Below, piece after piece: positions 9,234 to 61,747 of a stretch of DNA of 64,000 nt (positions within the stretch are counted from its first letter, which is position 1; each line of letters starts with the position of its first letter). The position numbers and the translations under genes are program-made. The stretch is taken from positions 186,001 through 250,000 of the forward strand of contig NZ_CP120373.1 of NCBI RefSeq assembly GCF_029892065.1, written 5' to 3'. The notes under the pieces were generated by a model. The model worked only from the letters and a program-made list of their open reading frames with translations. It was not told the origin of the DNA and ran no database searches. This DNA is from Sinorhizobium garamanticum (GTDB taxonomy: Bacteria > Pseudomonadota > Alphaproteobacteria > Rhizobiales > Rhizobiaceae).

Positions 9234-9945
9234 GACTGATCCTCCGGCCAGGCGCGATTGACACAAAAGTCATGCGCGCACAGCGCTGGTGATCTTCAGG
9301 GGTATCGTTCAGTCTAGCACAGCTGGTTCGTGGCGATGCCCTTCCAATAGGGCTAGGTATCCGCCAATTGGCTTAATCCATCCGCATTACCTGAACGCCT
9401 TGAGCCGCCGTCGCAGTCGAGAGTCTGCAAGGGCCTGAACGCACTGGTTGAGGAGGGATGGCCGACGGAGGGACCGGTGATCTGCGAACCACGCGAATGA
9501 GCAGGACAGGGCGGCGAACCGGCCTTGGAACTGGCTGGGGCGCCTGGATTCCCAGCTAAGGATTCAGCCCTTTTCAAGCCTTTGAGAAGGCCTCAATATC
9601 CTGATCACCTAAAGTGCTTGTACCACACTCCCGTACGACAGTCCGGCAAGACATTTCTGGGTGACAGCGACAATTGCACCATGCCCGGCTCAGGCTGCGT
9701 GCCTTGCGGGCCCGCGCATTTACCCGGGGGCTGCCCCTCTGGACTCCTATCGCGGGCAGCTGTCCTATGCGGTGCTCGGGCACTGCACACGTTCCAAGTT
9801 CCAGTGGATACACTATGCGATCTTCGAAGCACAAAACGAGAACTTCGTCTATTTACGATCGCAACTATAGGTGACCGTCAGCGCGGTCTACCTTGCAAAT
9901 CAGACTTGCTTCAGCGATGCTCTCTTTCTCACTCGGAGGGCCGTC
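9234..9945. other. Non-coding stretch carrying a tRNA-Gln 3'-end copy
   Basis: About 700 bases with no convincing gene on either strand; the short open frames here lack RBS and recognisable composition. The only structured signal is the 20-bp tRNA-derived repeat at 9532-9551. I looked for integrase or recombination-directionality remnants and saw none. Confidence 0.6.
9532..9551 (+). repeat. Putative attachment-site copy: last 20 nt of tRNA-Gln
   Basis: tggctggggcgcctggattc is identical, and in the same orientation, to 61673-61692, the last 20 nucleotides (T-arm, acceptor and CCA) of the tRNA-Gln gene. Identity stops abruptly at both ends of the 20 bases. A direct repeat of a tRNA 3' end lying on the downstream side of that tRNA is the usual signature of an element integrated at the tRNA. 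Confidence 0.7.
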
Positions 9946-11082
9946 ATGGGGTACGTCGAGATCACTGGGCACGTTGATATTTTCCAGTATTGGCCTCATG
10001 GCGCGTCCGATGTCGATACACTAAAATTCATCCCCGATCTGACCACCGCGACCTATTTTTCAGACGGAGTGACGTTGAAGGTTGGTACCTTCTTCGAGCG
10101 CGGCGGCACCTTCCAGCCGGATGACAACAAGCCAGGCGACGAGCGGTTCCGGTCGATCCTGCGCCGGAGCGGGGGCGCTTCCTTTTCGGTGCGCCTGCAG
10201 GGCATCGATGCACCGGAGACCCACTACTCGCCGAACTACCGCGAAGGTATGTTCGACGGGGATTATGGCAAGTGGATTGCCAAGCACGTGGCGCGGCAAA
10301 TGTCCTACCGGCAGCCCTACGGCAAGCTGTCGACCGATTTTTTCGCCAATAGCATTCGCTCCAAACTTGGCGTGGGCCCGTTCGACAGGGACAGTCCGGA
10401 AGTTCTAGTACCGGCGAAGTTGAAGATCTTCGCGGACAGCATCAATGGTGCGGCCGATGTCTATGGGCGCGTCGTGGGCTATGTGACGCTCTCGCAGAAT
10501 GGGCAGGACGTCGTGCTGAACGATGTCGCGTTGCAAGAAGGTTTCGCCTTCTGCTCGTTCTACGGCAGCATGACGGTCGCGGAAATGCAGCGGCTCACGG
10601 AACTCTATGCATCACACGGGACGAGTGGGGCAAGGCGATCGCAGTTGCGCAGCAATCTCTCAAGCCATCTGCGCGATTTCGAGCCTGGGCTCTGCACGTC
10701 CCGGTCAATGCGGGACACCGACCAAGACGACAACGGCTCCAATTCAATCCGTGGTACGGATTCCTTCCGCTCCAAATGCTTCGATCCCAAGCTCTACCGG
10801 CGCTGCGTCGACTGGGTCGGTCGAAGGGAGGCATTGGGCGAGCCGACGACGCTTCTCGACTATATGCGCGGTAATGACGAGGAAGTCGTCATGCTAGCTG
10901 ATTTCACCGCCGCCAATGGCGACTGGTCGCTTGCCCGGAAACTGTCGATGGGCTCCCTCATCGGGCCGGACGGCACGTTCCGCTACAAGCCGGGTGAAGT
11001 GGTGTTCGAAGCCCGGCCGGTGACGATCGTCGACGACCAGAAACGGCCGCTGCCAGCGAGCTTCCTCACACCCTACCCGTAA
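9946..11082 (+). CDS. Staphylococcal-nuclease-like (SNase/TNase) domain protein
   Basis: 378-residue protein with an SNase-type OB-fold core. Seen: 'SVRLQGIDAPET', giving the Arg83, Asp88, Glu91 counterparts of nuclease Arg35, Asp40, Glu43, and 'DVYGRVVGYV', with Arg175 matching Arg87; 'LNDVALQEGFAF' continues the fold. The first calcium-ligand aspartate appears replaced ('SDGVTLKV' instead of a DGDT pattern). The segment between the two motif blocks is unusually long and an extra ~150-residue C-terminal region is unassigned. No clear signal peptide. The start at 9946 has GGAGGG upstream. It is the first gene inside the putative island. Nuclease activity is inference. Confidence 0.75.
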   Translation: MGYVEITGHVDIFQYWPHGASDVDTLKFIPDLTTATYFSDGVTLKVGTFFERGGTFQPDDNKPGDERFRSILRRSGGASFSVRLQGIDAPETHYSPNYREGMFDGDYGKWIAKHVARQMSYRQPYGKLSTDFFANSIRSKLGVGPFDRDSPEVLVPAKLKIFADSINGAADVYGRVVGYVTLSQNGQDVVLNDVALQEGFAFCSFYGSMTVAEMQRLTELYASHGTSGARRSQLRSNLSSHLRDFEPGLCTSRSMRDTDQDDNGSNSIRGTDSFRSKCFDPKLYRRCVDWVGRREALGEPTTLLDYMRGNDEEVVMLADFTAANGDWSLARKLSMGSLIGPDGTFRYKPGEVVFEARPVTIVDDQKRPLPASFLTPYP

Positions 11083-11423
11083 GTTCGGTCTGTTCGCATT
11101 CGCGCAGGAGGCCCGCCCAAGAGGTCTACGTTGCCAGCTAGCGCAGGTGTCGCAGCATCGAGCATTCCCGATCCATATCGAGCCCATCTAACGAGGAGTG
11201 TGGACCTGGCGTCTTGGTCGGCCTGTGCCGGCTTCTGCATATGCCCGGGCTCTGCCGACCATGAGAGTCGCACGCTTGTTCGCAGTTCTTATGAGGTCGC
11301 CATCTTGTCAGGGACGTTTCGTCCCACCTGTGATGTCCGCGTAGGGGCCGCCGATCGCCCGGTGCTGCCGGCGCCCCACGGCGACAGAGAACGGCTTTGG
11401 ATCTCCGCACAACTCGTTGTTCG
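11083..11423. other. Convergent intergenic region
   Basis: 341 bases between the converging nuclease-like and patatin genes. I see no gene, RNA gene or clear terminator hairpin with a T-run here. Confidence 0.5.
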
Positions 11424-12380
11424 CTAGCGTGGCCACAAAGATCGATCGTCGAAGAACCACGCTGCGCGTTCCTGCCCGTTTTGCAGCAGGCGCTCGATCA
11501 CCGGGCTGGAGCGGTCCAGCTTTGAGGGATAGTCCAGGTCACCCGCGAGTTCGACGACTCGGATCATGATAGGTTTGTAGCGTGCGCCAAGTGACGAATG
11601 CTCGGCGAGAAGCTCATTGATTTTCGTAATGAAATACAATTCCTGAGCGAGTGCCAGGTTGCCAGACAGCTCATTCCGGCGGTCGATAATCTCTGGCATC
11701 GCCCGTGGCTCGCTGTTCCGCTGCTGCGGGTTGATCTGTACCACCCAGATCTCGTCTGGCCGCTCCGGCAACTCGGTGAATTCGCGCACTGGCGGATTGC
11801 GGCTGAAGAGCCCATCCCAGAAGAGCGTGCCGTGAGCCTGCACGGCACGGAAGAGCGGGGGAACCGCGGCCGAGGCGATCAGCTCGTCATAGGTCAAGCT
11901 CTCGCCCTCGAACGCCACACCGAGGCCGTGAATGATGTCCGTGGCCCCGATCAGGAGCTTCGGCCGCGCGCGACGATGGGGCTCGCTCGGCAACGACGCA
12001 AGGTCGAGGTGACGGCTGAGAAGGTCGCGCAACCGCGGCTCGGCCACAGGACTATAGAGGTAAGGGCTGATCTCGGCGCTGACCGGGAGGCGTGCCGACG
12101 ACACTGCCCAGAAATTAGCCACCGCATCAAGGATGTCATGCACCTTGAGGTCGCGCCAAAAGTCGATCAGGCGGCTCCTCGCCTCGTCCGCCCCACCGCG
12201 GATCAAGCCGGACCACACCAACGCGGCGCACATGGCACCGCCCGATGTCCCACTCAAGGCAATGAGCTGGTAACGATCACGAAACCCGGGCGCCAATAGG
12301 CCACTCAGCACACCCGCAGCAAAGGCAGCATGGCTGCCCCCTCCTTGGCAGGCTATCGCGATTTTAGGAGCCAGCGACAT
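11424..12380 (-). CDS. Patatin-like phospholipase
   Basis: 318-residue patatin-family serine hydrolase, expected to cleave acyl groups from lipids. Seen: the oxyanion-hole loop 'CQGGGSHAAF' near the N-terminus, nucleophile elbow GTSGG (44-48, Ser46), and the Asp-Gly of the catalytic dyad in 'LFWDGLFSRNPP' (Asp189). No signal peptide or membrane helix, so cytoplasmic or delivered by another route. The start at 12380 places the glycine loop at the usual distance from the N-terminus. It stands alone, convergent with the nuclease-like gene. Confidence 0.88.
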   Translation of the reverse strand: MSLAPKIAIACQGGGSHAAFAAGVLSGLLAPGFRDRYQLIALSGTSGGAMCAALVWSGLIRGGADEARSRLIDFWRDLKVHDILDAVANFWAVSSARLPVSAEISPYLYSPVAEPRLRDLLSRHLDLASLPSEPHRRARPKLLIGATDIIHGLGVAFEGESLTYDELIASAAVPPLFRAVQAHGTLFWDGLFSRNPPVREFTELPERPDEIWVVQINPQQRNSEPRAMPEIIDRRNELSGNLALAQELYFITKINELLAEHSSLGARYKPIMIRVVELAGDLDYPSKLDRSSPVIERLLQNGQERAAWFFDDRSLWPR

Positions 12381-12584
12381 GCGAAACACAACCCTCGTTA
12401 ATTTCGTCAACTTACGTGCCCGCGATAGTAGCGGCGGTGCTCGTCGAAGACTAGATCAGAGCCTATTCAATTCGCTCTCGCCGATCCGGTCCGCCCACGC
12501 CGCCGAACTCAAGCGATGGCGAAGATCACGTCGTTGGCGGTGTTGGCTGAGGTGGCAAGCAAGTCGGCTACCCCGCATCGAATT

Positions 12585-12761
12585 TGTCGCGTGCCGGGCG
12601 CTCTCTTCATCCTGTCGACCGACGGCGCGTTCGCCGGCACCATCGAGATGGAAACGGAAATTCGCGGTCCTGCCGACTTTGCGCTAGACAATGCAAACGG
12701 GACGATGTGGATACCGGCCACGCTCGACAATCAGGTGGTTGTGATCCGATTGAGCGATTGA
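12585..12761 (+). pseudogene. Remnant of an SMP-30/gluconolactonase-type beta-propeller gene
   Basis: The frame reads 'ALFILSTDGAFAGTIEMET' then 'GPADFALDNANGTMWIPATL' and 'NQVVVIRLSD' before its stop. This is the last-blade pattern of SMP-30/NHL-like propellers (GPADfalD...l.iP...nqV). Only about 60 residues of a family near 300 residues remain and the upstream sequence does not continue the fold, so it is probably a 3' fragment of a deleted gene. An 81-residue open frame starting at 12516 covers it but has no good RBS. Confidence 0.5.
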
Positions 12762-12842
12762 TCCAGTCGAATGGTTGTTTGGCGCACAGGAGTGATCGGG
12801 TATAAGCAAAGAGTGATCATCCGCGCCGAATGAACGAACAGC

Positions 12843-13196
12843 TCAGCGTTGTTCAATTTCATGTAGGAAGTTCTCCAGCACGTTCCTGCTTTGGGCCAGT
12901 TTTTCCGCCTTCTGGTCGGCAAGGCGAATTTGTTCATGCAGAACGTTGCGAAGTTCATCACACGGTTCAAAGACGAGGCCTTCTCCTCTCACGCACGGCA
13001 AAAACCGCCGAATTGTCGCAAGAGTCATGCCCGCTGAGCCGAGCAGCCTAATCCGCTCCACGGCGCGCAGCTCGGCCGGATCGTAATCCCGGTAACCGCT
13101 TGTGGTGCGCTGCGGCTTCAGCAACCCTTCGGCCTCATAATAGCGCAGCATGCGAATGCTCACGCCTGTGCGCTTTGACAGTTCGCCTATTTTCAT
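12843..13196 (-). CDS. MerR-family transcriptional regulator
   Basis: 117-residue MerR regulator. Seen: the N-terminal winged-helix 'MKIGELSKRTGVSIRMLRYYEAEGLL', the 'SGYRDYD' wing, a long dimerisation helix, and two cysteines ('FLPCVRGEGLVFEPCDEL') that may bind a metal or sense redox or electrophiles. It is divergent from a class IV aminotransferase gene, and the shared promoter has the stretched spacer that MerR proteins untwist. It should therefore activate that gene and repress itself. Inducer unknown. Confidence 0.92.
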   Translation of the reverse strand: MKIGELSKRTGVSIRMLRYYEAEGLLKPQRTTSGYRDYDPAELRAVERIRLLGSAGMTLATIRRFLPCVRGEGLVFEPCDELRNVLHEQIRLADQKAEKLAQSRNVLENFLHEIEQR

Positions 13197-13202
13197 TTCA
13201 TG

Positions 13203-13236
13203 CCCTTGACTCTGACAGCGCTGTCAGAGGTTAAGG
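13203..13236 (+). promoter_or_regulatory. MerR-type promoter/operator with 19-bp spacer
   Basis: -35 TTGACT (13206-13211) and -10 TTAAGG (13231-13236) are separated by exactly 19 bp. The spacer holds the palindrome CTGACAGCGCTGTCAG, and the whole element CCTTGAC...GTTAAGG is nearly symmetric. This over-long, palindromic spacer is the hallmark of MerR-activated promoters. It drives the gene at 13277. Confidence 0.85.
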
Positions 13237-13276
13237 CGGTTGCTCTTTGGTTTGAACCCACTCAGGAGCAAAAATC

Positions 13277-14092
13277 ATGTCTGCTGAAGCAAGCATTTAC
13301 CAAGCCCAGATAAATGGCCGTCCGGCCACCTCTGCCGAACTGATACCCTTGGCCTTTGCAGGATTTGCGCACTTCACGGCGATGCAGGTGCGAAACCGCA
13401 GGGTCAAAGGACTGGATCTCCATCTGGCACGCCTACGCAAAGCATCACTTGAGTTTTTTGGAAGAGCCCTGCCCGATGAACAACTGCAATCCTATATCAA
13501 AACGGCAATCGATGGGGGCCCGGAAGACCAGTCGTTGACGGCAACTATCTTTTCTCGCAACGGCGAGTTCACCGCCGACAGTATGGACGTGGAGCCGGCG
13601 GTTCTCGTCCGCACAGGAGCGCCGTCCGATGGCCCAAAGGGTCCGCTAAGGCTGAGTGCAGTGGATCACGAGAGGCCGCTGACCGCCATTAAGCATGTTG
13701 GCGAGGCCGGCAAAACCTACTACCTGCATCATGCCATACGCCAAGGGTTTGACGACGCCGCTTTCGTTGACAGGCGCGGGCGATTGAGCGAGGCAACAAT
13801 TTGGAACCTCGTCTTTTGGGATGGTGAAGCTGTTATCTGGCCGAAGGCGGCGATTTTGAACGGCACCATGATGGCCATTGTTCAGCGACAACTGGATCGC
13901 CTTGGTATTCCTCAGCGCAATGAAGAAATCGCCCTCGATCGCCTTGGAGGCTTGTCCGGCGCGGCGGTGATGAACTCATGGACGCCCGGCGTCGCAGTAA
14001 CTGGCATTGCTTCCAACGCGATCCCAGAGGCAAAGCCGTTCATAAGCCTGCTTCATAAAGCCTATGAGGCTGAACCGGCCAATTTCCTTTAG
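13277..14092 (+). CDS. Class IV (BCAT/ADC-lyase fold) aminotransferase family protein
   Basis: 271-residue fold-type IV PLP enzyme. Seen: 'RVKGLDLHLARLRKAS' near the N-terminus, a probable PLP-lysine region 'AIKHVGEAGKTYY', and the family signature 'LSEATIWNLVFW'. Substrate unclear: branched-chain, D-amino-acid or 4-amino-4-deoxychorismate-lyase-like activities all share this fold. AGGAG nine bases before the ATG fixes the start. Its only visible partner is the divergent MerR gene, whose promoter drives it, so it is probably induced by a small molecule or stress rather than being housekeeping. Confidence 0.85.
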   Translation: MSAEASIYQAQINGRPATSAELIPLAFAGFAHFTAMQVRNRRVKGLDLHLARLRKASLEFFGRALPDEQLQSYIKTAIDGGPEDQSLTATIFSRNGEFTADSMDVEPAVLVRTGAPSDGPKGPLRLSAVDHERPLTAIKHVGEAGKTYYLHHAIRQGFDDAAFVDRRGRLSEATIWNLVFWDGEAVIWPKAAILNGTMMAIVQRQLDRLGIPQRNEEIALDRLGGLSGAAVMNSWTPGVAVTGIASNAIPEAKPFISLLHKAYEAEPANFL

Positions 14093-14222
14093 GGTCCTTA
14101 ATTCCCGCATGGATGCGTTCAGGTAAGGTTGGCATGAGGAACCAATCTTCCCACCTACCGAATGGTAGCTTCGGGTCGATACTGTTGGAAAAGTCCCCTA
14201 CATCAAAGGCTAGATCGGACGA

Positions 14223-14846
14223 TCACTTCCGCCGGACATCGAGGCCCAGGGCCTCGGCGATAATGATCGTCTGGTCGATCGTGATGATCGCCTCCTTGAG
14301 GCGAACGTTTTCCGGCTCGATCGCGCTGAGGTCGCTGCCCCGAAGATCGCAGGCGGAAAAGTCCACGCCGTGCAGCCAGGCGCCGGAGAGATCGACATCC
14401 CGCAGGGAGCCTCCCTTGCAGGAGGCGCCCGTGAGATCCGCCTCCCGCAGGCGGGTGTCCTTGAAGGAGGCGCGGCCGAGCGCCGCGCCCGGCAGGCCGG
14501 CGAAGGACCAGTCCCCGCCCGAAACCTGCATCTGGTCGAACTCGCAGGCATCAAACATGCTGCCGACGAACTTGCACTCCGTGAAGCGGCTGTCGAAGAA
14601 CTTGCAGGAGACAAAGGTGCAGTTCACGAAGGCGCTCGCCTGATGCGACGAAGCATTGAAGCGGGCGCGCCGGAAGGTGCATTCGTGGAAGACCACGCCG
14701 ATGGTCTGCGCCTCGGTCAGGTCGAGATCGACGAAGAGCGTGTTCTCATGACGCTCGCGTTCGATCTGCCGGCCATACCAGTCCGCGCCGGCAATGGTGG
14801 TGTCGGTTTTCGGCGGCGCTTCGCCATATCGTCGTTCAGCCATCAT
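14223..14846 (-). CDS. Pentapeptide-repeat protein (Qnr/MfpA-like architecture)
   Basis: 207-residue right-handed quadrilateral beta-helix protein. Seen: successive five-residue repeats with central Phe/Leu, such as 'FVNCTFVSCKFFDSRFTECKF', 'ADLTGASC' and 'VDLSGAWLHGVDF', from about residue 38 to 175, with a short break near residue 105-115. That two-block layout and length recall gyrase-protecting Qnr proteins, but many pentapeptide proteins have other roles. No signal peptide. A GAGGA sequence precedes the ATG. Monocistronic next to a regulator remnant. Confidence 0.8.
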   Translation of the reverse strand: MMAERRYGEAPPKTDTTIAGADWYGRQIERERHENTLFVDLDLTEAQTIGVVFHECTFRRARFNASSHQASAFVNCTFVSCKFFDSRFTECKFVGSMFDACEFDQMQVSGGDWSFAGLPGAALGRASFKDTRLREADLTGASCKGGSLRDVDLSGAWLHGVDFSACDLRGSDLSAIEPENVRLKEAIITIDQTIIIAEALGLDVRRK

Positions 14847-14855
14847 CGTCCATCC

Positions 14856-15320
14856 TCAGCGCCGCCTGAACGGCCTCAGCTTGCCGCTTGCGAAAACGCA
14901 AATGGCCGAAGCAATATCTATCGAGAAAATGCCCTCGAGGCGATATCGTGGCGACACTGCCTCAACGATCTGCTCGGGTAGTGGGCGCGATCGCCGTGAG
15001 ATAGGCGTTTGGCGTTATTGCGCGGAAGTCCCGGTAGCGGGGGCAGATTGCCGGATTGACGAAACGATCCTCGATCTGGATCGGCAGCCCGCTCTCGAAG
15101 TGAACCATGATCGAATGGAAGATACGCGCGCCTGAGGCGAGCCGTGCGTCAAATCGGCTCAAAGGGTACCCGCGTGAGGGATCGTAATGCTCACAGTCGG
15201 TCGGGATCGGCCGCCCCGGTCCCGTCTGCTTTCCACATTCATCATTAGGTGAGCGGCAGCTTGAGGTTGATGCCCTCCACCATTTGCTATCTCTTCCTCA
15301 AGGCAGATCAAGACAGATGG
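14856..15320 (-). pseudogene. Decayed HutC/GntR-type (UTRA domain) regulator
   Basis: The reverse strand encodes 'RIFHSIMVHFESGLPIQIED' and 'RFVNPAI...TPNAYLTAIAP', the ligand-binding UTRA core of HutC-like GntR repressors, between about 14970 and 15162. Right after 'APTTR' the family continuation 'EQIVEAVSPRYRLEGIF' appears in another frame, showing a frameshift near 14975; that frame ends at 14856. The segment upstream to ~15320 may hold more degraded HutC ('EEEIANGGGHQPQAAAHL'), but the DNA-binding domain is missing. Not functional as read. Confidence 0.65.
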
Positions 15321-15521
15321 TAGCCTGATCGTTCTGAATGGATCGCCATCACGCACTTTGTCAAAGGTGAAGCTTTGATGGAGAAACTGAAAAACAGCTG
15401 AGTAAGTCTGTTACCAAACTGACATCGGAGCCCCCTAAAGAGTGCCCCCAAGCGGCGCTTGAGCGGGACGGGCGGACTTCCTGCACGGCGCATTTGCAAC
15501 CGTTGCCCGAGGCCCTGTCCC

Positions 15522-16358
15522 ATGAAGATCGTCCAGATCAGCGACACCCATCTCAGCCCCTCCAAGACCCATTTCAACGACAATTGGGAACCCGTTGCCC
15601 GCTGGATCGCGGCGGTCGAGGCTGATCTCGTCGTCCATACGGGCGACCTCACGATCGATGGCGCCGATCAGGAGGAAGACATCGCCTTCTCGTTGGAGCT
15701 AATGGGCAAGCTGCCGGTTCCGGTGCTGATCGTGCCCGGCAACCATGACGTCGGCCACCTGCCCGGTTCGGACCAGCCGGTCGACGCGCATCGGCTTGGT
15801 CGCTGGCGCAAGCTCGTCGGGCCTGACTATTGGGCCTGCGACCACGGCAACTGGCGGCTGATCGGCCTCAACAGCCTGCTTCTCGGCTTGGAAGACGCGG
15901 AGGAGGAGAAGCAGTTCCAATGGCTGGAACAGGCGCTTGCCGCTCGCAGTGGCCGCCGCGTCGCGATCTTCGCGCACAAACCGCTCTTCGTCGACGAGCC
16001 GGGCGAAGGCGATACCGGCTACTGGAGTGTGCGACCAGGTCAGCGGCGGCGTCTCTACGAGCTGATGGCGGAGAACGACGTCGCACTTCATGCGAGCGGC
16101 CATCTGCACTGGGCCTGGCGGGGCCGGCACGGGGGCGCTGACCTCGTCTGGGCGCCGCCGACCTCCTTCATCATCGACACGCTGGAGCGGGAAATGCCCG
16201 GCGAGCGCCTCGTCGGTGCGGTTCTCCATCACCTCGGCGAAGAGCGCATCGACAGCGAAATCGTCGTAGTGCCTGGATTGACGCCCCACGTCATCGATCA
16301 CGTGATCGAAGAGATCTATCCACGCCACGCCAAGACGCTCGCGGAGGCGGCGCAATGA
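15522..16358 (+). CDS. Calcineurin-like metallophosphoesterase (GpdQ/CpdA-like)
   Basis: 278-residue binuclear-metal phosphoesterase. Seen in order: 'ISDTHL' (Asp8, His10), 'VHTGDLT', 'VPGNHDVGH', 'IFAHKPLF' and 'ASGHLHWA', the five metal and phosphate ligand blocks. Length and motif spacing resemble GpdQ glycerophosphodiesterase and cAMP phosphodiesterase CpdA. It is the first gene of an operon with an ABC importer and overlaps the ATPase start by four bases (ATGA), so it likely acts on the imported substrate, for instance a phosphodiester. Cytoplasmic; no signal peptide. The exact substrate is inference from context. Confidence 0.9.
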   Translation: MKIVQISDTHLSPSKTHFNDNWEPVARWIAAVEADLVVHTGDLTIDGADQEEDIAFSLELMGKLPVPVLIVPGNHDVGHLPGSDQPVDAHRLGRWRKLVGPDYWACDHGNWRLIGLNSLLLGLEDAEEEKQFQWLEQALAARSGRRVAIFAHKPLFVDEPGEGDTGYWSVRPGQRRRLYELMAENDVALHASGHLHWAWRGRHGGADLVWAPPTSFIIDTLEREMPGERLVGAVLHHLGEERIDSEIVVVPGLTPHVIDHVIEEIYPRHAKTLAEAAQ

Positions 16359-19258: not shown

Positions 19259-19281
19259 CCGGTTTAAACCAGGAGAGCGTC

Positions 19282-20547: not shown

Positions 20548-20567
20548 CGGACACAAAAACCGCGAAA

Positions 20568-20599: not shown

Positions 20600-20611
20600 C
20601 GTCGTCTGTGG

Positions 20612-50161: not shown

Positions 50162-50306
50162 CGTGCCCCTCCCACGACGCCGTGCTCTCCTGCCCCGCGC
50201 AAAATCGCCGCAACGCTCCCATTCTCGGCACCGGGTGCTCTTGGTCGGAGTCGAACATAGACGGTCCTGCCGGAGGCAGCGATGTACTGGAACACATCAC
50301 GACCCT

Positions 50307-53701: not shown

Positions 53702-53845
53702 ACTCGCGATCGGTCGCCATCGTTAGAGCATGCCCAGCCCGGGATGAGGATAAAGTGTGCGCGGTTTTCCGCCCGCATCCCAGGCTAACTTCCTAGAATC
53801 GATCACGTTTATGATTTAGGTCGATCCGACCTATATCATCGCGAT

Positions 53846-55489
53846 CTAACGAAGCCCTGCCGCGACTTCGAAGACCGCGGCCACCGCCATGGCGCCCGGG
53901 TCCGGTACGCCGTCGAGATCCCGTTCGCCGACGTAAGAAGCGCGGCCGGCCTTCGCCTTCTTCATCGCCCGGGTCGCGTCGGCGCCGGCGCGCGCCGCGG
54001 AAGCCGCCGCGGCAAGACCGCCCGCTCTAAGCGCGCGCAGCGCCGGATCCAGAGCATCTACCATCGTTCGGTCGCCGACGGCCGCCCCGCCGTAGAAGGT
54101 CATCCGTTCGAGTCCCGCCAAGAGCGCACCCGCCATGTCTTTCGTGTCCGAATAGGCCTTGGCGGCGGCGGTGAAGAAGATTGACAGAAGCACGCCGCTC
54201 GACCCGCCCATGCTTGTGCTAAGAATGCTGCCGATCGACGAGAGCGTCGCGGCGATATCCTTCAGCGGCAGCCTTTCGATCTGCGCCAGAACGCTGCGCG
54301 AACCTGTCGCCACGGTCGAGCCGGTATCGCCATCACCGGCCCGGGAGTCGAGGTGGTTGAGCTCCGCCTCTAACGAGAGCAGATGATCGCAGATCGCCGC
54401 GATCAGCCGATCGGCCGCCGGATCGTGACTGGCGGCCACGGACGGAGTGGCGGGCATGGCAGTCACCGGCAGAACGGAGACATCATGCCGCTCGACGGCG
54501 GGTATCCAGGCATGCGGGCCGACAGGCGATGTCAGTGCTGCCTCACGCTCGCCGTCGAGCCGGATCAGGGAAAGCGAAAAGCCGTTCATGTTGAGCGCCG
54601 TCATCATCGGCGCCGGGCCTATCGTCAGCTTCACGCGCTCGGCGAGCGACGATGAAAGAACCGTGTGGGCGATCAATCCCATCTCGATCGGCGGCACGGC
54701 ACCAAGATTGTTGATGAGAAGCGCATAGTGGCCATCTACTGGCAAAGCCCTGGAAAGCCGCTCGGACATGATGGCAACAATGCTGCGCGCCTCCTGCAGG
54801 GCGATCCGTTCGGCGCCGGGTTCGCCATGGATGCCGAGGCCCAACTCCCCCTCGTCCGTCTCGAGCCGCTCCGCATGGGCCTGGCCCGGGATCGAGCACG
54901 ACGATAGCGACACGCCGAGCGAGACGATAGCGCGCGCCGCCGAGCGGGCGGCAGCGGCAATGGTCTCGAGACCCGCATCCTGCTCGGACAGGTGTCCAGC
55001 AATCTTATGGACGAAGAGCGTTCCGGCGACGCCGCGCGGCTGGGCGATATCCGGCAGCGCGATGTCGTCGGCAACGATCACCATCTCGACGCGAAAGCCT
55101 TCGACGCGCGCCTTTTCCGCCGCGAGCCCGAAGTTGAGGCGATCGCCAGTGTAGTTCTTGACGATCAGCAGGCAGCCCTTCGGCCCGGTCACCGCGCGAA
55201 TCGCGGTCAGCACCGCCTCGACGCTCGGCGAGGCGAAGATCTCGCCGGAAACCGCCGCAGTCAACATGCCTTTCCCGACAAAGCCCGCATGCGAAGGCTC
55301 ATGGCCGGCCCCGCCGCCCGAGATGACTGCGACCTTCGCCTTTTCCCATTCACCGCGCAGGACGACCTTGATGTCGGGATAGGCGTCAAGGCGCGCGAGT
55401 CTTCCGGCCGGCGCCGTCTGCAGCAAGCCATCCAGCGCTTCGGTGACGATGTTTTCCCTGCGGTTGAAAAAGTGCTTCATTGTTTTCAT
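53846..55489 (-). CDS. Fused DhaK-DhaL (ATP-dependent dihydroxyacetone/ketose kinase)
   Basis: 547-residue single-chain kinase. Seen: DhaK domain (about 1-330) with 'ISGGGAGHEPSHAGFVGKGM' and the covalent-binding His221 ('GLGIHGEPGAE'). After a linker near 340-365 comes a DhaL domain with 'LDSRAGDGDTGSTV' and 'AVGDRTMVDALDPAL'. Such fusions use ATP directly. Homologues phosphorylate dihydroxyacetone or D/L-erythrulose. An alternative start at 55480 ('MKHFFNR') fits family N-termini. It sits between ABC operon B and the PTS-type kinase set, so it probably handles the imported polyol-derived ketose. Confidence 0.92.
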   Translation of the reverse strand: MKTMKHFFNRRENIVTEALDGLLQTAPAGRLARLDAYPDIKVVLRGEWEKAKVAVISGGGAGHEPSHAGFVGKGMLTAAVSGEIFASPSVEAVLTAIRAVTGPKGCLLIVKNYTGDRLNFGLAAEKARVEGFRVEMVIVADDIALPDIAQPRGVAGTLFVHKIAGHLSEQDAGLETIAAAARSAARAIVSLGVSLSSCSIPGQAHAERLETDEGELGLGIHGEPGAERIALQEARSIVAIMSERLSRALPVDGHYALLINNLGAVPPIEMGLIAHTVLSSSLAERVKLTIGPAPMMTALNMNGFSLSLIRLDGEREAALTSPVGPHAWIPAVERHDVSVLPVTAMPATPSVAASHDPAADRLIAAICDHLLSLEAELNHLDSRAGDGDTGSTVATGSRSVLAQIERLPLKDIAATLSSIGSILSTSMGGSSGVLLSIFFTAAAKAYSDTKDMAGALLAGLERMTFYGGAAVGDRTMVDALDPALRALRAGGLAAAASAARAGADATRAMKKAKAGRASYVGERDLDGVPDPGAMAVAAVFEVAAGLR

Positions 55490-55528
55490 CCAATTGCTTC
55501 TCGACTTCTCTGCGAAACGATCGGCGCC

Positions 55529-56536
55529 TTAGCGCAGCCGCTCGCCGTCTGTTCCGAAATAAAGGGGCTGTCTCAGCGAGAGGTTTATCCGATCGCCCGG
55601 TTTGATGGAGAGATAGGGGTCGGCGAGAGTCACGAGCTTGTGGCCTTTCACCCGGATGTGCAGGTGGTTCTGGTCGCCGAGGTGCTCGATCCAGTCCACC
55701 TCGGCATTGCCCTCGGTGTCCGTGGCGATCTCCAGATGTTCGGTCCGCGCGCCAATCGTGCGCGCACCGGTAGGTGGCGCGGCTCCCGGCAGGAGGTCTA
55801 CGGGAAGCAGGTTTATGTGCGGCTGGCCGAGGCGCGCCGCGACATGCAGATTGGCCGGGTCCGCATAGATCTCCCGCGGCGTGCCGATCTGCACGAGCCG
55901 GCCCTTGGACAAAATGCCGATGCGATCCGCCATCGTCATCGCCTCGACCTGGTCATGGGTAACGTAGAGCAGCGTCGAGCCCAGCTCCTTTTGGATCCGC
56001 TTCAGTTCCAGCCGGAGTTCGGCGCGCAGCTTGGCGTCGAGCGAAGACAGCGGCTCGTCCATCAGATAGATCGCCGGCCGCCGAACGAGCGCCCGGCCGA
56101 TCGCGACACGCTGCATCTCGCCACCCGAAAGCCGCGTCGAGCGGTTTTCGAGCTTGTGCTCGATGCGGACCATGCGCGCGACCTCGCGCACGCGACGGTC
56201 AATCTCATCACTGCTCAGCCGCCGAGCCGGGGATCGCAGCGGAAAAGCGAGATTGTCGTAGACGCTCAGATGCGGATAAAGCGAATATTGCTGGAAGACG
56301 AAGGCCACGTCCCGCTCGGCGGGCGATTGCCGGCTGACATCGCGACCGGCGATCGTCACCCGCCCGCAATCCGGCCTTTCGAGCCCGGCGATCAAACGCA
56401 GGGTCGTCGTCTTGCCGGCGCCTGTCGGCCCGAGGAGGACCACGAATTCCCCGTCTCTTATGGTCAGCGACAGATCGTCGACCGCGACCGTGTCGCCGAA
56501 GGCCTTGCCTATGCCGTGAAGAACGACCTCAGCCAT
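55529..56536 (-). CDS. ABC operon B: ATPase 2 (LSGGE type)
   Basis: 335-residue ATPase. Seen: Walker A GPTGAGKT (36-43), signature LSGGE (136-140), Walker B YLMDE, 'YVTHDQVEAM', and a short TOBE region. Its Ala in the P-loop and Glu in the signature match ATPase 2 of operon A. It overlaps the preceding ATPase gene by eight bases. Confidence 0.94.
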   Translation of the reverse strand: MAEVVLHGIGKAFGDTVAVDDLSLTIRDGEFVVLLGPTGAGKTTTLRLIAGLERPDCGRVTIAGRDVSRQSPAERDVAFVFQQYSLYPHLSVYDNLAFPLRSPARRLSSDEIDRRVREVARMVRIEHKLENRSTRLSGGEMQRVAIGRALVRRPAIYLMDEPLSSLDAKLRAELRLELKRIQKELGSTLLYVTHDQVEAMTMADRIGILSKGRLVQIGTPREIYADPANLHVAARLGQPHINLLPVDLLPGAAPPTGARTIGARTEHLEIATDTEGNAEVDWIEHLGDQNHLHIRVKGHKLVTLADPYLSIKPGDRINLSLRQPLYFGTDGERLR

Positions 56537-57626
56537 GGCGCGCCTCCGCATAGAGAGAGGAGGCGATCGCCCTGCCTGAGATGCAGTCGAAGACGGCGAG
56601 CTTTGCCGGATTGAATTCGAGCCCGACGGTCTCGCCAAGCCTGAAGCTGCGGTCCGCCGAAACGCGCGCCTTGACGATGCCGGCGGCGGTCTCCACGGCG
56701 ATGATCTGGTTGGTGCCGTGATATTCACTGCCATAGACAGCGCCGCGGATGGGGGATTGATCGCTGAAGCGGATATGTTCCGGACGGACGCCGAGCGCCA
56801 TTTCGCCCGGCGCCACGTCCTCCCCCACCTCCGGCACGGCGACTTCGACAGCGTCGAGGAATATCGATCGCGTCCCTCTTTTGAGTCCCGAATGGAAGCG
56901 CATGAAATTCATCGGCGGCGAGCCGATGAAATCGGCGACATACATCGAGGCCGGACGATTGTAGATTTCCTGCGGCGTGCCGAACTGTTCGATCACGCCG
57001 TGGTTCATAACCGCGATCTTGTCGGCCATCGCCATGGCTTCGTGCTGGTCATGAGTCACGTAGACCGTTGTCGCGCGGATGCGATTGTGCAGCTCGCGCA
57101 GCTCATGGACCATGACCTCGCGGAATTCCGCGTCGAGCGTGCCGAGTGGCTCGTCCATCAGGAAGCACTTTGGCCGCCGGACGATCGCTCGACCGAGTGC
57201 AACACGCTGGCGGTCGCCGCCGGCAAGGCCCGAGACAGACCGGTCGATGATGTGATCGATCCTCAAGAGCCTCGCGGTCTCCTCGACGCGGGCGCGGATT
57301 TCCGTCCTTGGCACGCCCTGCGACAGGAGCGGGAAACCGATGTTCCGGCGTACATTCATGTGCGGATAAAGCGCGAAGAGCTGGAAGACGAAGGCGATGT
57401 CGCGGGCGCTCGCCCGGTTAAAGGTGACGTCCTCGCCGTCGAGATAAATCTTGCCGCTCGTCGGCAGCTCAAGCCCGGCAATCATCCTGAGTGTCGTTGT
57501 CTTGCCGCAGCCCGACGGCCCGAGCAGCGCCAGAAACTCACCGTCCTCGACCGTGAAACTCGAATCCTCGACGGCGACAAAATCACCGAACTGCTTGCGG
57601 AGGTTTACGATCTTGATCTCGGACAT
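56529..57626 (-). CDS. ABC operon B: ATPase 1 (LAGGD type)
   Basis: 365-residue ATPase. Seen: Walker A GPSGCGKT (36-43), signature LAGGD (134-138), Walker B FLMDE, 'YVTHDQHEAM', and TOBE 'LGVRPEHIRF'. The Cys P-loop and Asp signature match ATPase 1 of operon A. Begins three bases after the small membrane gene. Confidence 0.94.
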   Translation of the reverse strand: MSEIKIVNLRKQFGDFVAVEDSSFTVEDGEFLALLGPSGCGKTTTLRMIAGLELPTSGKIYLDGEDVTFNRASARDIAFVFQLFALYPHMNVRRNIGFPLLSQGVPRTEIRARVEETARLLRIDHIIDRSVSGLAGGDRQRVALGRAIVRRPKCFLMDEPLGTLDAEFREVMVHELRELHNRIRATTVYVTHDQHEAMAMADKIAVMNHGVIEQFGTPQEIYNRPASMYVADFIGSPPMNFMRFHSGLKRGTRSIFLDAVEVAVPEVGEDVAPGEMALGVRPEHIRFSDQSPIRGAVYGSEYHGTNQIIAVETAAGIVKARVSADRSFRLGETVGLEFNPAKLAVFDCISGRAIASSLYAEARHG

Positions 57627-57629
57627 CGC

Positions 57630-57839
57630 TTACTCCGGAAATTTCGAGACGACGATGAACATAACGGTTCCAGTCAGCAGCATCGCCAGCGAATAGGTGT
57701 AGAGCGCCAGCAGGAACGGCTGGAACAGCATCAGGAAGCCCGCGGCGATCAGCGCCGTCGCGATGCTTTCCATCGGGCCGCGCCTGAGGAGGAACGGTCG
57801 CTTGCGGGATGCAGGGGTCAATTCTTGCGGGTTCGTCAT
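57630..57839 (-). CDS. ABC operon B: small two-helix membrane protein
   Basis: 69-residue counterpart of the protein at 38087-38290. A 22-residue polar/basic N-terminus precedes two helices ('SIATALIAAGFLMLFQPF' and 'YSLAMLLTGTVMFIVV'), ending 'SKFPE'. It overlaps permease 2 by four bases (ATGA). It shares the G-x-x-x-L-x-QP(W/F) and SK(I/F)P motifs with the operon A protein although overall identity is low. This points to a conserved accessory subunit. Confidence 0.85.
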   Translation of the reverse strand: MTNPQELTPASRKRPFLLRRGPMESIATALIAAGFLMLFQPFLLALYTYSLAMLLTGTVMFIVVSKFPE

Positions 57840-58792
57840 TTGCGGACCGCTCCGAAGGTGATGCCGCGCAGCAATTGCTTGCGCAGGATGATGGTGAAGA
57901 CGAGAATCGGTATGAGGAAGATCGTCGTGCCGGCGGCAACCGCCGGCCAATCCTGGCCGCCCTCGCCGATGATCGTCGGTATGAACGGCGGCGCGGTTTG
58001 CGCCGCGCCCGAAGTCAGGAGTACCGCGAAGGCATATTCGTTCCAGGCGAAGATCAGGCAGAAGATCGCCGTTGCGGCGATGCCGGTCGTCGCCTGCGGC
58101 AGCACGACCTTCCAGAAGGCCTGCAGCCGGGTATAACCATCGATCATCGCCGCCTCCTCGTATTCGCGGGGAATCTCGTCAATGAAGCCCTTGAGCAGCC
58201 AGACGGCGAGCGAGACGTTGACGGCGGTATAGAGGAGGATCATGCCGAGCGCCGTATCGGAAAGTCCGAACTGGCGGTACATGAGGTAGATCGGGATCGC
58301 CACCGCGATCGGCGGCATCATCCGTGTCGAAAGAATGAAGAACAGTAAATCGTCGGCAAGCGGCACGCGGAAGCGCGAGAAGCCATAGGCAGCAAGCGTT
58401 CCCAGAGAGACGGCAAGGAAGGTCGAGCCGAAGGCGATTACGAGCGAATTGCCGAAGCGGGGCCAGTAGTTCGAAGGACCGGCGATGACCATGTTGCGGC
58501 CGCGGGTGATCTCGTCGCACGCTCCCGTCGGGGCGGGGAGCGACTGGATATAGTCCGGCGTCTGCCTGGTGCGCGTCGTGAACAGGTTGCAGAAACCCTC
58601 GAGCGTCGGCGTGAACACGATCTTCGGCGGATAGCTGATCGAGTCAGGCGGCGACTTGATGCTCGTCAGGAAGATCCAGGCGAGCGGGACCATCGTCACC
58701 AGCGCATAGAGGATGACGATCGTACCGGCGATGCGCTTCACGGTCGGCGTCGGCTCGACCACGGAATGGGCGGTGGTGTTGACCGAACTCAT
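57836..58792 (-). CDS. ABC operon B: permease 2
   Basis: 318-residue MalG-type permease with an enlarged first periplasmic loop ('LEGFCNLFTTRTRQTPDY' to 'NYWPRFGN', with a Cys in each part). Seen: 'TRMMPPIAVAIPIYLMYR', EAA loop 'EYEEAAMIDGYTRLQAFWKV', terminal 'LLRGITFGAVRK'. Subfamily features match operon A permease 2. Overlaps permease 1 by four bases. Confidence 0.93.
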   Translation of the reverse strand: MSSVNTTAHSVVEPTPTVKRIAGTIVILYALVTMVPLAWIFLTSIKSPPDSISYPPKIVFTPTLEGFCNLFTTRTRQTPDYIQSLPAPTGACDEITRGRNMVIAGPSNYWPRFGNSLVIAFGSTFLAVSLGTLAAYGFSRFRVPLADDLLFFILSTRMMPPIAVAIPIYLMYRQFGLSDTALGMILLYTAVNVSLAVWLLKGFIDEIPREYEEAAMIDGYTRLQAFWKVVLPQATTGIAATAIFCLIFAWNEYAFAVLLTSGAAQTAPPFIPTIIGEGGQDWPAVAAGTTIFLIPILVFTIILRKQLLRGITFGAVRK

Positions 58793-59766
58793 CGCTGTTT
58801 CACCTTGTTGAGCGCTTTGACGTAGATGTTCGCGAGGCCGAACACGGCGACGAAAAGGATGATCGCGAAGGCGGACGATCGTCCGGTGAGCCAGCTTTCG
58901 AAGGCCTCGCGCTTCAGCGTGATCGACGCGACCTCGGTGGTCGAACCGGGCCCTCCACCCGTCAAAAGCATCACCATGTCGAACATCTTGAAGTTCTCGA
59001 TGCCGCGGAAGAGCACCGCGAGCATGATGAAGGGCAGTGCCATTGGCACGGTGATCGACCAGAATTGCCGCCAGACGGAAGCGCGGTCGACCTCGGCCGC
59101 CTCGTAGATGTAGTCGGGTATCGACCTGAGGCCGGCGAGGCAGATCAGCATGACGTAAGGCGTCCACATCCAGGTATCGACGATGATGATCGCCCAGGGT
59201 GCCAAGCTCACCGAACCGAGCATCTCGAAGGATGACGGCGGAATGCCCGTGAAGAACGAGACGATATAGTTGAAGAGGCCGATCTGCGGCTGGTAGAGGA
59301 ACCGCCAGAAATTACCGACGACCGCCGGCGACAGCATCATCGGAATGAGGATGACCGTCGTCCAGAATGCGTGGCCGCGGAACTTGCGGTCGATGAGGTA
59401 GGCGAGTGCGAAGCCGATGACCGTCTGCAGGAGGATCGTCCAGAAAACGAAATGCGCCGTCGTCTGCATGGCGATCCAGATGTCCGGATCATTGAGCACC
59501 CGCTGGTAGTTACGCAAACCGACGCTCTCGACCTCGGCGTTGGGGCGGTTGGCGCGGAAATTCGTGAAGGACAGGTAGACCGCCCAGATCAGCGGAAAAA
59601 TATTGATCGCAAGCAGCAAGGCGATCGTCGGCGTTATAAAGAGCCAGGCGATGGCGCGATCCGAAAGGCCGCGCACCCGGTCCGCGATCGTTGTCGGCGT
59701 AGCGCAAGCAAGCATGTCGGCGGATCGCTCCGCAATGGTGGAAGGGGCATCGGTCACGGACAACAC
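58789..59766 (-). CDS. ABC operon B: permease 1
   Basis: 325-residue MalF-type permease. Seen: 'WLFITPTIALLLAINIFPLIWAV', 'VGLRNYQRVLNDPDIW', EAA loop 'YIYEAAEVDRASVWRQFWSI', 'LTGGGPGSTTEVASITLKREAF' and a C-terminus 'NIYVKALNKVKQR' like operon A permease 1. Start codon uncertain: GTG at 59766 or 59757, neither with a strong RBS. Confidence 0.92.
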   Translation of the reverse strand: MLSVTDAPSTIAERSADMLACATPTTIADRVRGLSDRAIAWLFITPTIALLLAINIFPLIWAVYLSFTNFRANRPNAEVESVGLRNYQRVLNDPDIWIAMQTTAHFVFWTILLQTVIGFALAYLIDRKFRGHAFWTTVILIPMMLSPAVVGNFWRFLYQPQIGLFNYIVSFFTGIPPSSFEMLGSVSLAPWAIIIVDTWMWTPYVMLICLAGLRSIPDYIYEAAEVDRASVWRQFWSITVPMALPFIMLAVLFRGIENFKMFDMVMLLTGGGPGSTTEVASITLKREAFESWLTGRSSAFAIILFVAVFGLANIYVKALNKVKQR

Positions 59767-59798
59767 CTGAATTCAACGAAGGATAGGGTTCGGGGACG

Positions 59799-59822
59799 AC
59801 GGCCCGGACCTTGCCGGGCCGT
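59799..59822 (-). promoter_or_regulatory. Intercistronic stem-loop after binding protein B
   Basis: 9-bp perfect stem ACGGCCCGG/CCGGGCCGT (59799-59807 with 59814-59822) in the 71-base gap between the binding-protein stop and permease 1. No T-run on the minus strand; likely sets relative expression, like the equivalent hairpin at 36076-36096. Confidence 0.65.
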
Positions 59823-59837
59823 GTTCCTGAGGGAAGC

Positions 59838-61163
59838 CTAAAGCTTGCCTTCGTCCTCGAAGATTTCCTTCCAGTCATTGACCAGCGCGTCGAGCGCCTC
59901 TTGCGCCGTGCCTTGGTCGGCGACGACATAGTCATGCAGGCGCTTCTGCATGGCCTGCATCAGGATGGCGTAGGAGGGCTCCTGCCAGAAGTCCTGCACC
60001 TGGTTCATCGCGACGAGGAAATCGGCCGCGAAGGGCTGGCTGGCCTTGAAGGACGGATCGTTCAGGACCGCATTGTGCACGGCGTAGCCGCCGAGCGCCC
60101 ACCATTTCTTCTGAACATCGGGCTGGGCGAACCATTTGATATAGGCGAGCGCGCCGTCCATGTTGTCGGTGTTGGCGACCACGGACATCCCCTGCCCGCC
60201 GAGCGTCGAGGCGGCGACCTTCTGCTTGGGATTGACGAAGAAGCCGATCTTGTCGCCGCCGACCTTCTCGTCCTTGTAGAGGCCGGGGAAGAAGGCGAAC
60301 CAGTTCATCGCCATCGCCACCTGGCCGGATTTGAAGGCGTCGAGCCCCTCGCCCATGTAGCTGTCGGTATAGCCGGGCGGCTGACAGCATTTGTAGAGCG
60401 CCTTGTAGGCTTCGAGCCCCGCCACGGCGTCCGCGGAATTGACGGCGCCGTCCATCTCGTATTTGCCGCCCGCCTGCTCGTATTTAAAGCCGTAAGGGTA
60501 GAGCGCCGAAGTCGCGCCCATGGTGATGCCCTCGGAGGCGCGTTCGGTGAAGATCGCCGCACCATAGACCTTCTGGCCATCGATTTCGCGACCGGTGAAG
60601 AATTCGGCGACCTGCTTCAGTTCATCCCAGGTCTGCGGCGGGCCGAGGTCGCGGCCGTATTTCCCCTTGAACTCGGCCTGCAATTCCGGTTTGGCGAACC
60701 AATCCTTGCGATAGAACCAGCCGTTGGCGTCGCCCATGGCCGGCAGCGCCCAGTAGTTCGGCGTGCCTTTCGGCCAGGTGGAATAGGCATTGACCGCGGC
60801 TTCGGCGAAGTCGCTCATCTTGATTCCTTCCTTGTCGAAGAAATCGTTGAGCTTGACGTAGTAGCCGTTTTCGGCGGAACCGCCGATCCATTGGCTGTCG
60901 CCGATCAGGAGATCGCAGAGCTTGCCGCCCGAATTGAGCTCGTTGAGAATGCGGTCGGCGAAGTTCGGCCAGGGCACGAACTCGAACTTCATCGTCGTGC
61001 CGGTCGCTGCGGTAAAATCCTTGGAGAGCTCGACCAGCGCATTCGCCGGATCCCAGGCTGCCCAGCACAGCGTCAATTCATCGGCCTTCGCCATTCCCGG
61101 TATCGCCGTCGACAGCACGAGTGCCGACGACATGCCCATCAGGGCCTTTGTCATCTTCCGCAT
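59838..61163 (-). CDS. ABC operon B: extracellular solute-binding protein
   Basis: 441-residue periplasmic binding protein. Seen: signal peptide 'MRKMTKALMGMSSALVLSTA' with cleavage after 'AKA', 'ELTLCWAAWDPANALVEL', 'LLIGDSQWIGGSAENGYYVKL', 'GWFYRKDWF' and 'MNWFAFFPGLY', all shared with operon A's binding protein. The start at 61163 has GGAGG five bases upstream; the longer upstream frame is not protein-like. First gene of operon B and, by inference, of the whole transport-plus-kinase cluster down to 49169. Confidence 0.94.
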   Translation of the reverse strand: MRKMTKALMGMSSALVLSTAIPGMAKADELTLCWAAWDPANALVELSKDFTAATGTTMKFEFVPWPNFADRILNELNSGGKLCDLLIGDSQWIGGSAENGYYVKLNDFFDKEGIKMSDFAEAAVNAYSTWPKGTPNYWALPAMGDANGWFYRKDWFAKPELQAEFKGKYGRDLGPPQTWDELKQVAEFFTGREIDGQKVYGAAIFTERASEGITMGATSALYPYGFKYEQAGGKYEMDGAVNSADAVAGLEAYKALYKCCQPPGYTDSYMGEGLDAFKSGQVAMAMNWFAFFPGLYKDEKVGGDKIGFFVNPKQKVAASTLGGQGMSVVANTDNMDGALAYIKWFAQPDVQKKWWALGGYAVHNAVLNDPSFKASQPFAADFLVAMNQVQDFWQEPSYAILMQAMQKRLHDYVVADQGTAQEALDALVNDWKEIFEDEGKL

Positions 61164-61672
61164 GCATTCCTCCCAGATACAGAACCGACCGACGCCGGCC
61201 TCGGAAAATTCTCCCTTGCTCACATGCCCAAGCCATACTCCCTCATGTTGAGCAATATGTTTAGTGATATACGTTTTACTAAACACATCAAGTGCAATTC
61301 GTCGCTGCAACGCAGCATGCGTAGCGAGGAGAGGGCCAGGAGGAGCAGCGTGCCGACGCTCCCGGTCACCTTTATTGTGGCCCACGAAGACCGTGCTTGC
61401 GTCGCTGACGTTTGGTAGTGTCACTAGGCGGCCTTGCCCGCCTCTTCGGCATCGGCACGAATGATTGCGGTGGCACTCGATTCCGTCTGCCGGGGCGGTT
61501 CTCGAGACCAGTGTATTTCTAAAGGGATGAGCAGGACTTGGTTAGCCTTCCTATAAGACAGCCGCGTACGACAGTCGTGTAAGGCAACCCTGTGCGACAG
61601 GGCCCCAAATTCGATACCCAGCTAAGTGAAGAGTGCTGGAAAACCTGAAGTTCCGGTTTGAAAAGGGAAACT
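61164..61672. other. Upstream region of ABC operon B up to tRNA-Gln
   Basis: 509 bases with no gene. It holds the inverted repeat at 61258-61285 and must contain the operon B promoter. It shares cgtacgacagtc (61564-61575) with 9632-9643 and cccagctaag (61616-61625) with 9551-9560, short matches near the other end of the putative island. No integrase gene or remnant seen. Confidence 0.55.
61258..61285. promoter_or_regulatory. Operator-like inverted repeat upstream of ABC operon B
   Basis: TGTTTAGT and ACTAAACA are perfect 8-bp inverted arms separated by 12 AT-rich bases, 95 bases before the binding-protein start. The size fits a dimeric repressor or activator site. No regulator gene lies next to it, unless the HTH-like protein at 50307-50717 is the binder. 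Confidence 0.6.
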
Positions 61673-61747
61673 TGGCTGGGGCGCCTGGATTCGAACCAGG
61701 GAATGGCGGTACCAAAAACCGCTGCCTTACCGCTTGGCTACGCCCCA
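61673..61747 (-). tRNA. tRNA-Gln (anticodon TTG), CCA encoded; putative integration site
   Basis: The reverse complement gives TGGGGCG...CGCCCCA acceptor pairing, anticodon stem around the loop TTTTGGT (anticodon TTG), T-arm CCTGG/CCAGG with GTTCGAATC, discriminator G and encoded CCA. Its last 20 nucleotides (61673-61692) recur as a direct repeat at 9532-9551. Confidence 0.97.

Follow-up and report, generated by a model that had tools for sequence, protein, structure and literature searches.

A 64,000-nucleotide stretch of the Sinorhizobium garamanticum genome (C1:186001-250000, referred to here as the window; the genome comprises 6,834,248 bp in three contigs and is 98.77% complete) carries an island that is inserted at the 3' end of a tRNA-Gln(TTG) gene, is bounded by a 20-bp repeat, and in which no integrase was found. 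With a probability of about 0.8, we read it as a decayed island resembling a cis-mobilizable element (CIME), which would have lost its integrase, kept both attachment arms and become unable to excise by itself. What is new here is that both ends are attachment arms of the type borne by a family of tyrosine-recombinase islands residing in related genera.

The tRNA-Gln(TTG) gene, called by ARAGORN at 61673..61747 on the minus strand, contains at its 3' end the 20-mer TGGCTGGGGCGCCTGGATTC (attR core, 61673..61692), an exact copy of which lies in direct orientation at 9532..9551 (attL core), 52,141 bp away from core to core, as the first-pass annotation of this stretch had described; the window holds no third copy. 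That annotation had also named many dispersed copies of the 20-mer as an outcome speaking against its proposal, and a search of the 6.83-Mb genome returned instead two exact copies, one at each island end, together with two further places of 2 mismatches each, which are a tRNA-Gln(CTG) gene and its own distant repeat. The short extra matches that it had taken for shared end sequences, CGTACGACAGTC at 9632 and 61565 and CCCAGCTAAG at 9551 and 61617, are likewise real and are portions of the two conserved attachment arms. Base composition is of no help in delimiting the island, as GC content changes little between the inside (0.621) and the outside (0.641 and 0.635).

The conclusion that these 52,141 bp were inserted at tRNA-Gln follows from empty sites in relatives. 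Across 33 genomes of the genus (this genome, which is the only one of its species, and 32 others), the tRNA side was matched in all 33 and some of the left flank in 29, and the site was found to be empty in seven of the 32 others (G027, G032, G029, G026, G015, G005 and G025). The left-flank and tRNA-side matches overlap by exactly 20 bp in G027, G032 and G029 and by 25 bp in G026, the left-flank match running in these four through the whole core into the tRNA. In G015, G005 and G025 the distance between the left-flank match and the tRNA is no more than about 45, 80 and 170 bp, respectively. In the empty-site relatives that were read, the 20-bp core occurs in the tRNA only. A gene order shared by all relatives, which had been put forward beforehand as telling against an insertion, was not seen, seven of them being empty at tRNA-Gln. 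In one of the 32 (G031, a sister species; G031:C25:113000-122000), the same attB holds a different element of 7.7 kb, a prophage remnant whose tyrosine integrase is broken, and both this integrase and the right end of the remnant differ from those of the window island family.

The ends of the island were compared with profiles made from seven right and seven left arms of islands in other genera, the window being excluded from both. The right-arm profile matches the window at 61516-61671 (E 2.6e-32) and the left-arm profile at 9552-9662 (E 3e-22), while the other matches in the window up to E 1 fall on the array of the opposite arm (1.1e-4 and 0.0029), with one more at 0.36. Four TAMGACA-type sites 13 bp apart (starts 61554, 61567, 61580 and 61593) are present in the right, tRNA-side (P) arm (61516..61672, plus strand) and three, with the same spacing (starts 9621, 9634 and 9647), in the left (P') arm (9552..9662, plus strand). 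Every arm, in the window and elsewhere, has TAMGACA-like sites at a 13-bp period and in one orientation; against the four sites of the window, the other right arms have 5, 4, 4, 4, 3, 2 and 2, and against its three, the other left arms have 3, 3, 3, 2, 2, 2 and 2, with a stray off-array site in two of the latter. In 2000 Markov shuffles per arm, the 13-bp spacing never arose for either arm of the window and arose 0 to 4 times for the remaining arms, a statistic that is descriptive since motif and period were picked after the arms had been inspected. We presume the arrays to be integrase arm-binding sites, by analogy with known tyrosine-recombinase attachment sites, and the homologous arms with their 13-bp arrays place the window island, judged by its sequence, in a tRNA-Gln(TTG) island family with an integrase of about 685 amino acids (aa).

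The sister islands were recovered by two pattern searches. The right-end pattern, with at most one mismatch, matched 4 of 394 genomes of the family: the window's own, Mycoplana azooxidifex (G335), Shinella sp. CPCC 101442 (G342) and G139, in the last of which a second exact core was not found. The pattern of core plus left arm, run against a collection of 84,980 species in which the window's own genome is possibly not included, gave seven records, namely, M. azooxidifex, Shinella sp. CPCC 101442, Rhizobium altiplani, Gellertiella hungarica, R. rhizogenes GBBC3284, Rhizobium sp. 18065 and R. setariae. The second core lies 39,445 bp away in Mycoplana and 38,352 bp away in Shinella, and the core-to-core lengths of the six islands with a tRNA-side end are 39,445, 38,352, 32,349, 32,964, 12,946 and 15,249 bp. 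All six sister islands (12.9-39.4 kb) occupy the same tRNA, and each has attL, attR and an integrase homologue beside the tRNA-side arm. In Mycoplana and Shinella this is a tyrosine recombinase of 685 aa, the start of which lies 167 bp from the end of the tRNA; the Mycoplana protein scores 26.3 bits for DUF6538 and 23 bits for Phage_integrase, both just below the Pfam cut-offs, and has a match (E 4e-21) to an integrase family of the PHROGs. The homologues in the remaining islands are 92% identical over the full length (R. rhizogenes), 50% identical (R. setariae), 51% identical with a match over 243 aa only (Rhizobium sp. 18065) and 42% identical over 575 aa with an internal TGA (Gellertiella). 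In R. rhizogenes, too, the distance between the tRNA end and the start of the match is 167 bp; it is 155 bp in Gellertiella, 143 bp in R. setariae and 179 bp in Rhizobium sp. 18065, this last distance being counted from the start of the match.

In R. altiplani (L107:1900-2800), the right arm is followed directly by the core and the left arm, an arrangement that looks like tandem or collapsed elements of the same island family, and integrase pieces of 80-87% identity lie on two contigs. We also observed there a second, degenerate left arm, which starts about 250 bp before the core, beside a dhaK-like gene. Neither relaxase nor secretion genes were found among 20 proteins, a subset of the open reading frames (ORFs), from two of the sister islands and their edges. 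The Shinella island (L128:10354-11388, L075) has what is probably defence cargo, with genes for a DNA methylase, an EH_Signature protein and a protein resembling type III restriction enzymes.

Where the sisters have their integrase, the window has none. The homology of the right arm stops 157 bp from the tRNA, at the place where an integrase start would be expected from the 143-179 bp of the sisters. Using both 685-aa cognate integrases as queries, tblastn gave chance-level matches only (E 4 and above) in the window, and PF00589, which has 11 places in the whole genome at an E limit of 1e-3, has none in it. A Pfam scan of 48 of the 52 predicted island proteins and 4 extra ORFs detected no recombinase, transposase, relaxase or secretion protein; the scan left out the predicted genes g33, g36, g54 and g55, and the gene prediction was home-made and missed at least two real genes, a MerR regulator at 12843 and an aminotransferase at 13277, both of which are within the 4 extra ORFs. 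Nine small island ORFs had no match among the PHROGs. The absence of a visible integrase reported in the first-pass annotation is thereby borne out within the window, and the degraded recombinase that it had proposed to look for left no piece that the cognate integrases could detect.

Its suggestion that such an element would be either immobilised or mobilised in trans can now be narrowed. A close homologue of the cognate integrases was not found in the window's own genome (best match 27.8 bits, 30% identity over 159 aa), for which reason immobilisation fits better than mobilisation in trans at present. In the genus, an integrase match at E 1e-3 was obtained in 17 of the 33 genomes, the best full-length relatives being 26-27% identical (G017 and G024); the relative in G017 lies about 175 bp from a CTG-type core, so that tRNA-Gln genes may be preferred by this integrase family at large. 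The same figures bear on a rival explanation, according to which the element was never mobile by itself, its arms and cargo having been assembled elsewhere and integrated in trans by a sister integrase present at that time. Such a history would agree with the presence of both arms, with the patchwork nature of the cargo and with the back-to-back right arm, core and left arm of R. altiplani, as tandem elements would give. A close sister integrase is, however, missing from the window's own and from the 32 other genomes of the genus, where the best full-length relatives are 26-27% identical, and we consider this explanation unlikely, although the search for the cargo in relatives covered part of it and a copy lacking the integrase may exist elsewhere.

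The decayed-island interpretation can be laid out as the following sequence of events: (i) a member of a Rhizobiaceae island family would have been inserted by tyrosine recombination between a 20-bp attP core and the 3' end of tRNA-Gln(TTG), a mode of insertion that we favour because of the empty sites and the homologous arms; (ii) the integrase, which lies 143-179 bp inside the tRNA-side end in the six sisters, would then have been lost from the window island; (iii) an operon for dihydroxyacetone kinase and an ABC transporter would have been gained, which now starts about 40 bp inside the expected integrase point; and (iv) the remaining unit of attL, cargo and attR, similar to a CIME, would be incapable of excising alone unless a related integrase arrives. 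The order, with insertion first and integrase loss and operon gain later, is one that we infer. Possibly, a sister island that entered the genome later could take the cargo away by recombination with attL or attR. The junction itself (61473..61515) lies between the end of the homology to the operon, at 61472, and the start of the arm, at 61507-61516, and an integrase arranged as in Mycoplana would have its start codon at about 61505.

The operon in question is segment 6 of the cargo (49157..61472, minus strand; Pfam), which comprises dihydroxyacetone-kinase and phosphotransferase system (PTS) genes, an ABC transporter and a solute-binding protein. It is 88-90% identical over 95-97% of the query to sequences on 8 Sinorhizobium plasmids, and a piece of at least 5 kb occurs elsewhere in 22 of the 32 other genomes of the genus at 83-92% identity, often split and falling to 76% in its weaker parts. 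In the window's own genome it is found only within the island (E limit 1e-200). The first-pass annotation had anticipated neither this operon nor the sister islands in other genera. In G008, G032, G025 and G009 the homology ends at query positions 19772-19773, corresponding to 61471-61472 of the window. The operon resides on megaplasmids in four relatives, probably S. terangae, S. sojae, S. fredii NGR234 and S. chiapasense, and off the tRNA contig in G001, G016 and G023; on the other hand, it is on the tRNA-bearing contig in G009 (3,967,005 bp) and G008 (6,476,459 bp), and a megaplasmid location is therefore not general. Its similarity does not track that of the core, as shown by G023 and G030, where the operon is 92% identical and the tRNA flank 81%.

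Two further explanations can be judged against these data. The arms could represent a portable landing pad, by means of which a visiting integrase moved the enclosed operons from other replicons to the chromosome; if this were true, units without an integrase would constitute a route by which catabolic operons shift from rhizobial megaplasmids to the chromosome. The megaplasmid location of segment 6 in four relatives and its restriction to the island in the window's own genome are in line with such a role, but its position on the tRNA contig in G009 and G008 and its identity off the core trend in G023 and G030 count against it, and we regard it as decidedly doubtful. It could also be argued that there is no island at all and that an ordinary rearrangement between replicons ended at the tRNA by chance, given that the identity of segment 6 to relatives reaches 92%, near the 90-92% that the closest of them show in the tRNA-side flank, and that the genome has no other copy of it. 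This is contradicted by the exact 20-bp repeat, the exact empty sites and the two family-specific arms at the exact edges, as well as by the location of the segments at separate places in relatives such as G023, which together make it extremely improbable.

Finally, the island could be mobile without an integrase of its own, with unrelated host functions excising it via its direct repeats, as in the microcin H47 island. There is a precedent for this in E. coli, in a passage of PMC3191183, and the genome has 11 tyrosine-recombinase places elsewhere; the repeats here are, however, just 20 bp long. A second island of the same genome (C1:461242-486255, 25 kb) is relevant in this respect. It is located at tRNA-Gln(CTG), has its own 20-bp repeat, of which 18 of the 20 bases are as in the window core, and contains a tyrosine-recombinase place at 466873. 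The integrase of this island was considered as a helper in trans and rejected: a search for four arm motifs at one mismatch, in 3 kb around each core, gave two isolated single matches, which speaks against excision by such a host function and leaves it very unlikely. Both of these tRNA-Gln genes (TTG and CTG) are thus occupied in this genome.

Several observations weigh against regarding the window island as a decayed member of this family: (i) in 24 of the 32 other genomes of the genus the left flank was not matched next to the tRNA, and scoring for an empty site covers the other eight; (ii) the window's species is sampled by a single genome; (iii) four of the seven sites in the window arms have one mismatch to TAMGACA, that is, the arm sites are partly degenerate; (iv) two of the six sister integrases, in Gellertiella and Rhizobium sp. 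18065, are damaged or partial, so some of the sisters may be dead too; (v) each junction has a stretch that is unassigned, 35-44 bp long on the right and about 180 bp on the left; and (vi) there is no integrase remnant, as a consequence of which loss after insertion and insertion of an already integrase-less element are indistinguishable.

Besides segment 6, the cargo consists of five segments, whose contents were assigned by Pfam. The junction with the left arm holds a piece of dispersed sequence of about 50 bp (9798..9849, plus strand), which has many short matches across the genus and represents the end of an open frame, its translation ending in ...YAIFEAQNENFVYLRSQL. Segment 1 (9852..15360) encodes an SNase-homologue protein, a patatin, a MerR regulator, a class IV aminotransferase and a pentapeptide protein; its part 9852-11081 is 94% identical to contig C1 of G016, and the patatin gene is 88-90% identical to genes on Rhizobium and Sinorhizobium plasmids. 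Segment 2 (15361..21640), with a metallophosphoesterase, a sugar-type ABC transporter and a LacI regulator, is 78-88% identical to Ensifer, Sinorhizobium and Pararhizobium plasmids among the matches listed. Segment 3 (21641..29200), with a solute-binding protein, two permeases, a DUF3592 protein and a TetR regulator, is hardly represented among plasmids, a single record matching over 187 bp. Segment 4 (29201..45896) encodes DJ-1, M24 peptidase, cupin, PEP-hydrolase-like and UPF0261 proteins, a TetR regulator and an ABC transporter, together with a 2-hydroxyacid dehydrogenase, a GntR regulator, a mandelate-racemase-type enzyme and two xylose-isomerase-like proteins. Its right part is nearer to Rhizobium and Phyllobacterium plasmids (34573-45896, 84-87% among the matches listed) than to the genus (80-83% at 41.7-45.9 kb), and its left part shows the reverse, 29201-34388 being 84% identical to Sinorhizobium fredii versus 81% to Rhizobium/Phyllobacterium. 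Segment 5 (45897..49156), with cupin, glyoxalase, TetR and redoxin genes, is about 89% identical to S. meliloti plasmids over one third of its length and 95% identical over 1.2 kb, at two places, to contig C1 of G016.

As a whole, the cargo has four sets of sugar-type ABC-transporter genes, regulators of the LacI, TetR, GntR and MerR types, and enzymes that include dihydroxyacetone kinase with PTS parts as well as sugar-isomerase-like and mandelate-racemase-like proteins. Its segments are about 76-90% identical to plasmids of Sinorhizobium, Ensifer, Rhizobium and Phyllobacterium among the matches listed, in a comparison collection that contains no chromosomes, and part of the cargo only was sought in relatives. 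In G023, three separate places hold segment 6, a portion of segment 5 and a portion of segment 4, from which it follows that the island is a patchwork.

Traces of the right arm were detected beside tRNA-Gln in other members of the genus. In the tRNA flanks of the window's own and 19 other genomes, the right-arm profile matched in G019 (1.7e-6), G008 (1.9e-4), G017 (6e-4) and G028 (1.4e-3), and the left-arm profile gave weak matches in G008 (0.035) and G028 (5.1). A second exact core was sought in G008, G017, G028 and G019 and not found, and integrase matches in the 17-20 kb beside the tRNA were at chance level only; because of these two absences the traces look like scars, possibly of older members of the same island family. 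Outside the island, two kinds of repeats were noted. The gene region of the left flank contains 252-bp tandem repeats (two pairs, window 7074-8271), parts of which are matched by relatives at several offsets, so that the repeat number may vary between species, and a dispersed repeat of about 100 bp, which is present many times both here and in related genomes, occurs at 61901-62002 and 63063-63164.

The island is of a known kind, and the observation that drew attention to it is confirmed and well explained. It offers a clean case in which the recombination ends of a tRNA island are fully readable though the recombinase is gone, and island finders that demand an integrase would miss such elements. 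The sister islands of other genera supply candidate matching integrases, which makes the rescue of a stranded catabolic island in cis or in trans directly testable. Open-access literature searches returned no description of a tRNA-Gln(TTG) island family, and the passages of PMC5704250, PMC11476347, PMC6328675, PMC3557214 and PMC3191183 at hand leave it undescribed; passages of two of these report a potential island at tRNA-Gln(CTG) in S. meliloti AK555 (PMC6328675) and an O-antigen cluster that adjoins tRNA-Gln in R. tropici (PMC3557214).

Among known systems, a CIME is defined, in a passage of PMC5704250, as an element whose integration and transfer genes are lost and whose attL and attR are kept. 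The window island would resemble it in having cargo between attL and attR, no integrase or transfer genes found and an occupied tRNA 3' end; it departs from a plain CIME assignment in that a conjugative or mobilizable ancestor is no more than putative, none of the 20 sister proteins scanned being a relaxase or secretion protein. With the islands and prophages of S. meliloti, as presented in part of PMC11476347, it has in common the tyrosine-recombinase type, the tRNA ends and the direct repeats, but all 88 of the 88 site-specifically integrated sequences of that survey carry an integrase gene, and in the window island none was found. The microcin H47 island of E. coli, according to a passage of PMC3191183, also has no recombinase genes and yet excises; like it, the window island is bounded by repeats and without recombinase genes found, whereas the H47 island measures 13 kb, has extensive imperfect repeats and has been shown to excise. 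The closest counterparts are the six sister islands, which agree with it in the core, where at most two bases differ, in the arrays and in orientation, and have homologous arms. The sisters of Mycoplana, Shinella, R. rhizogenes, R. setariae, Gellertiella and Rhizobium sp. 18065 differ from the window island in having an integrase homologue at the right arm, and the cargo inspected in Shinella and Mycoplana, which comprises restriction/DNA-methylase type genes, an AAA ATPase and transporters, is unrelated to that of the window.

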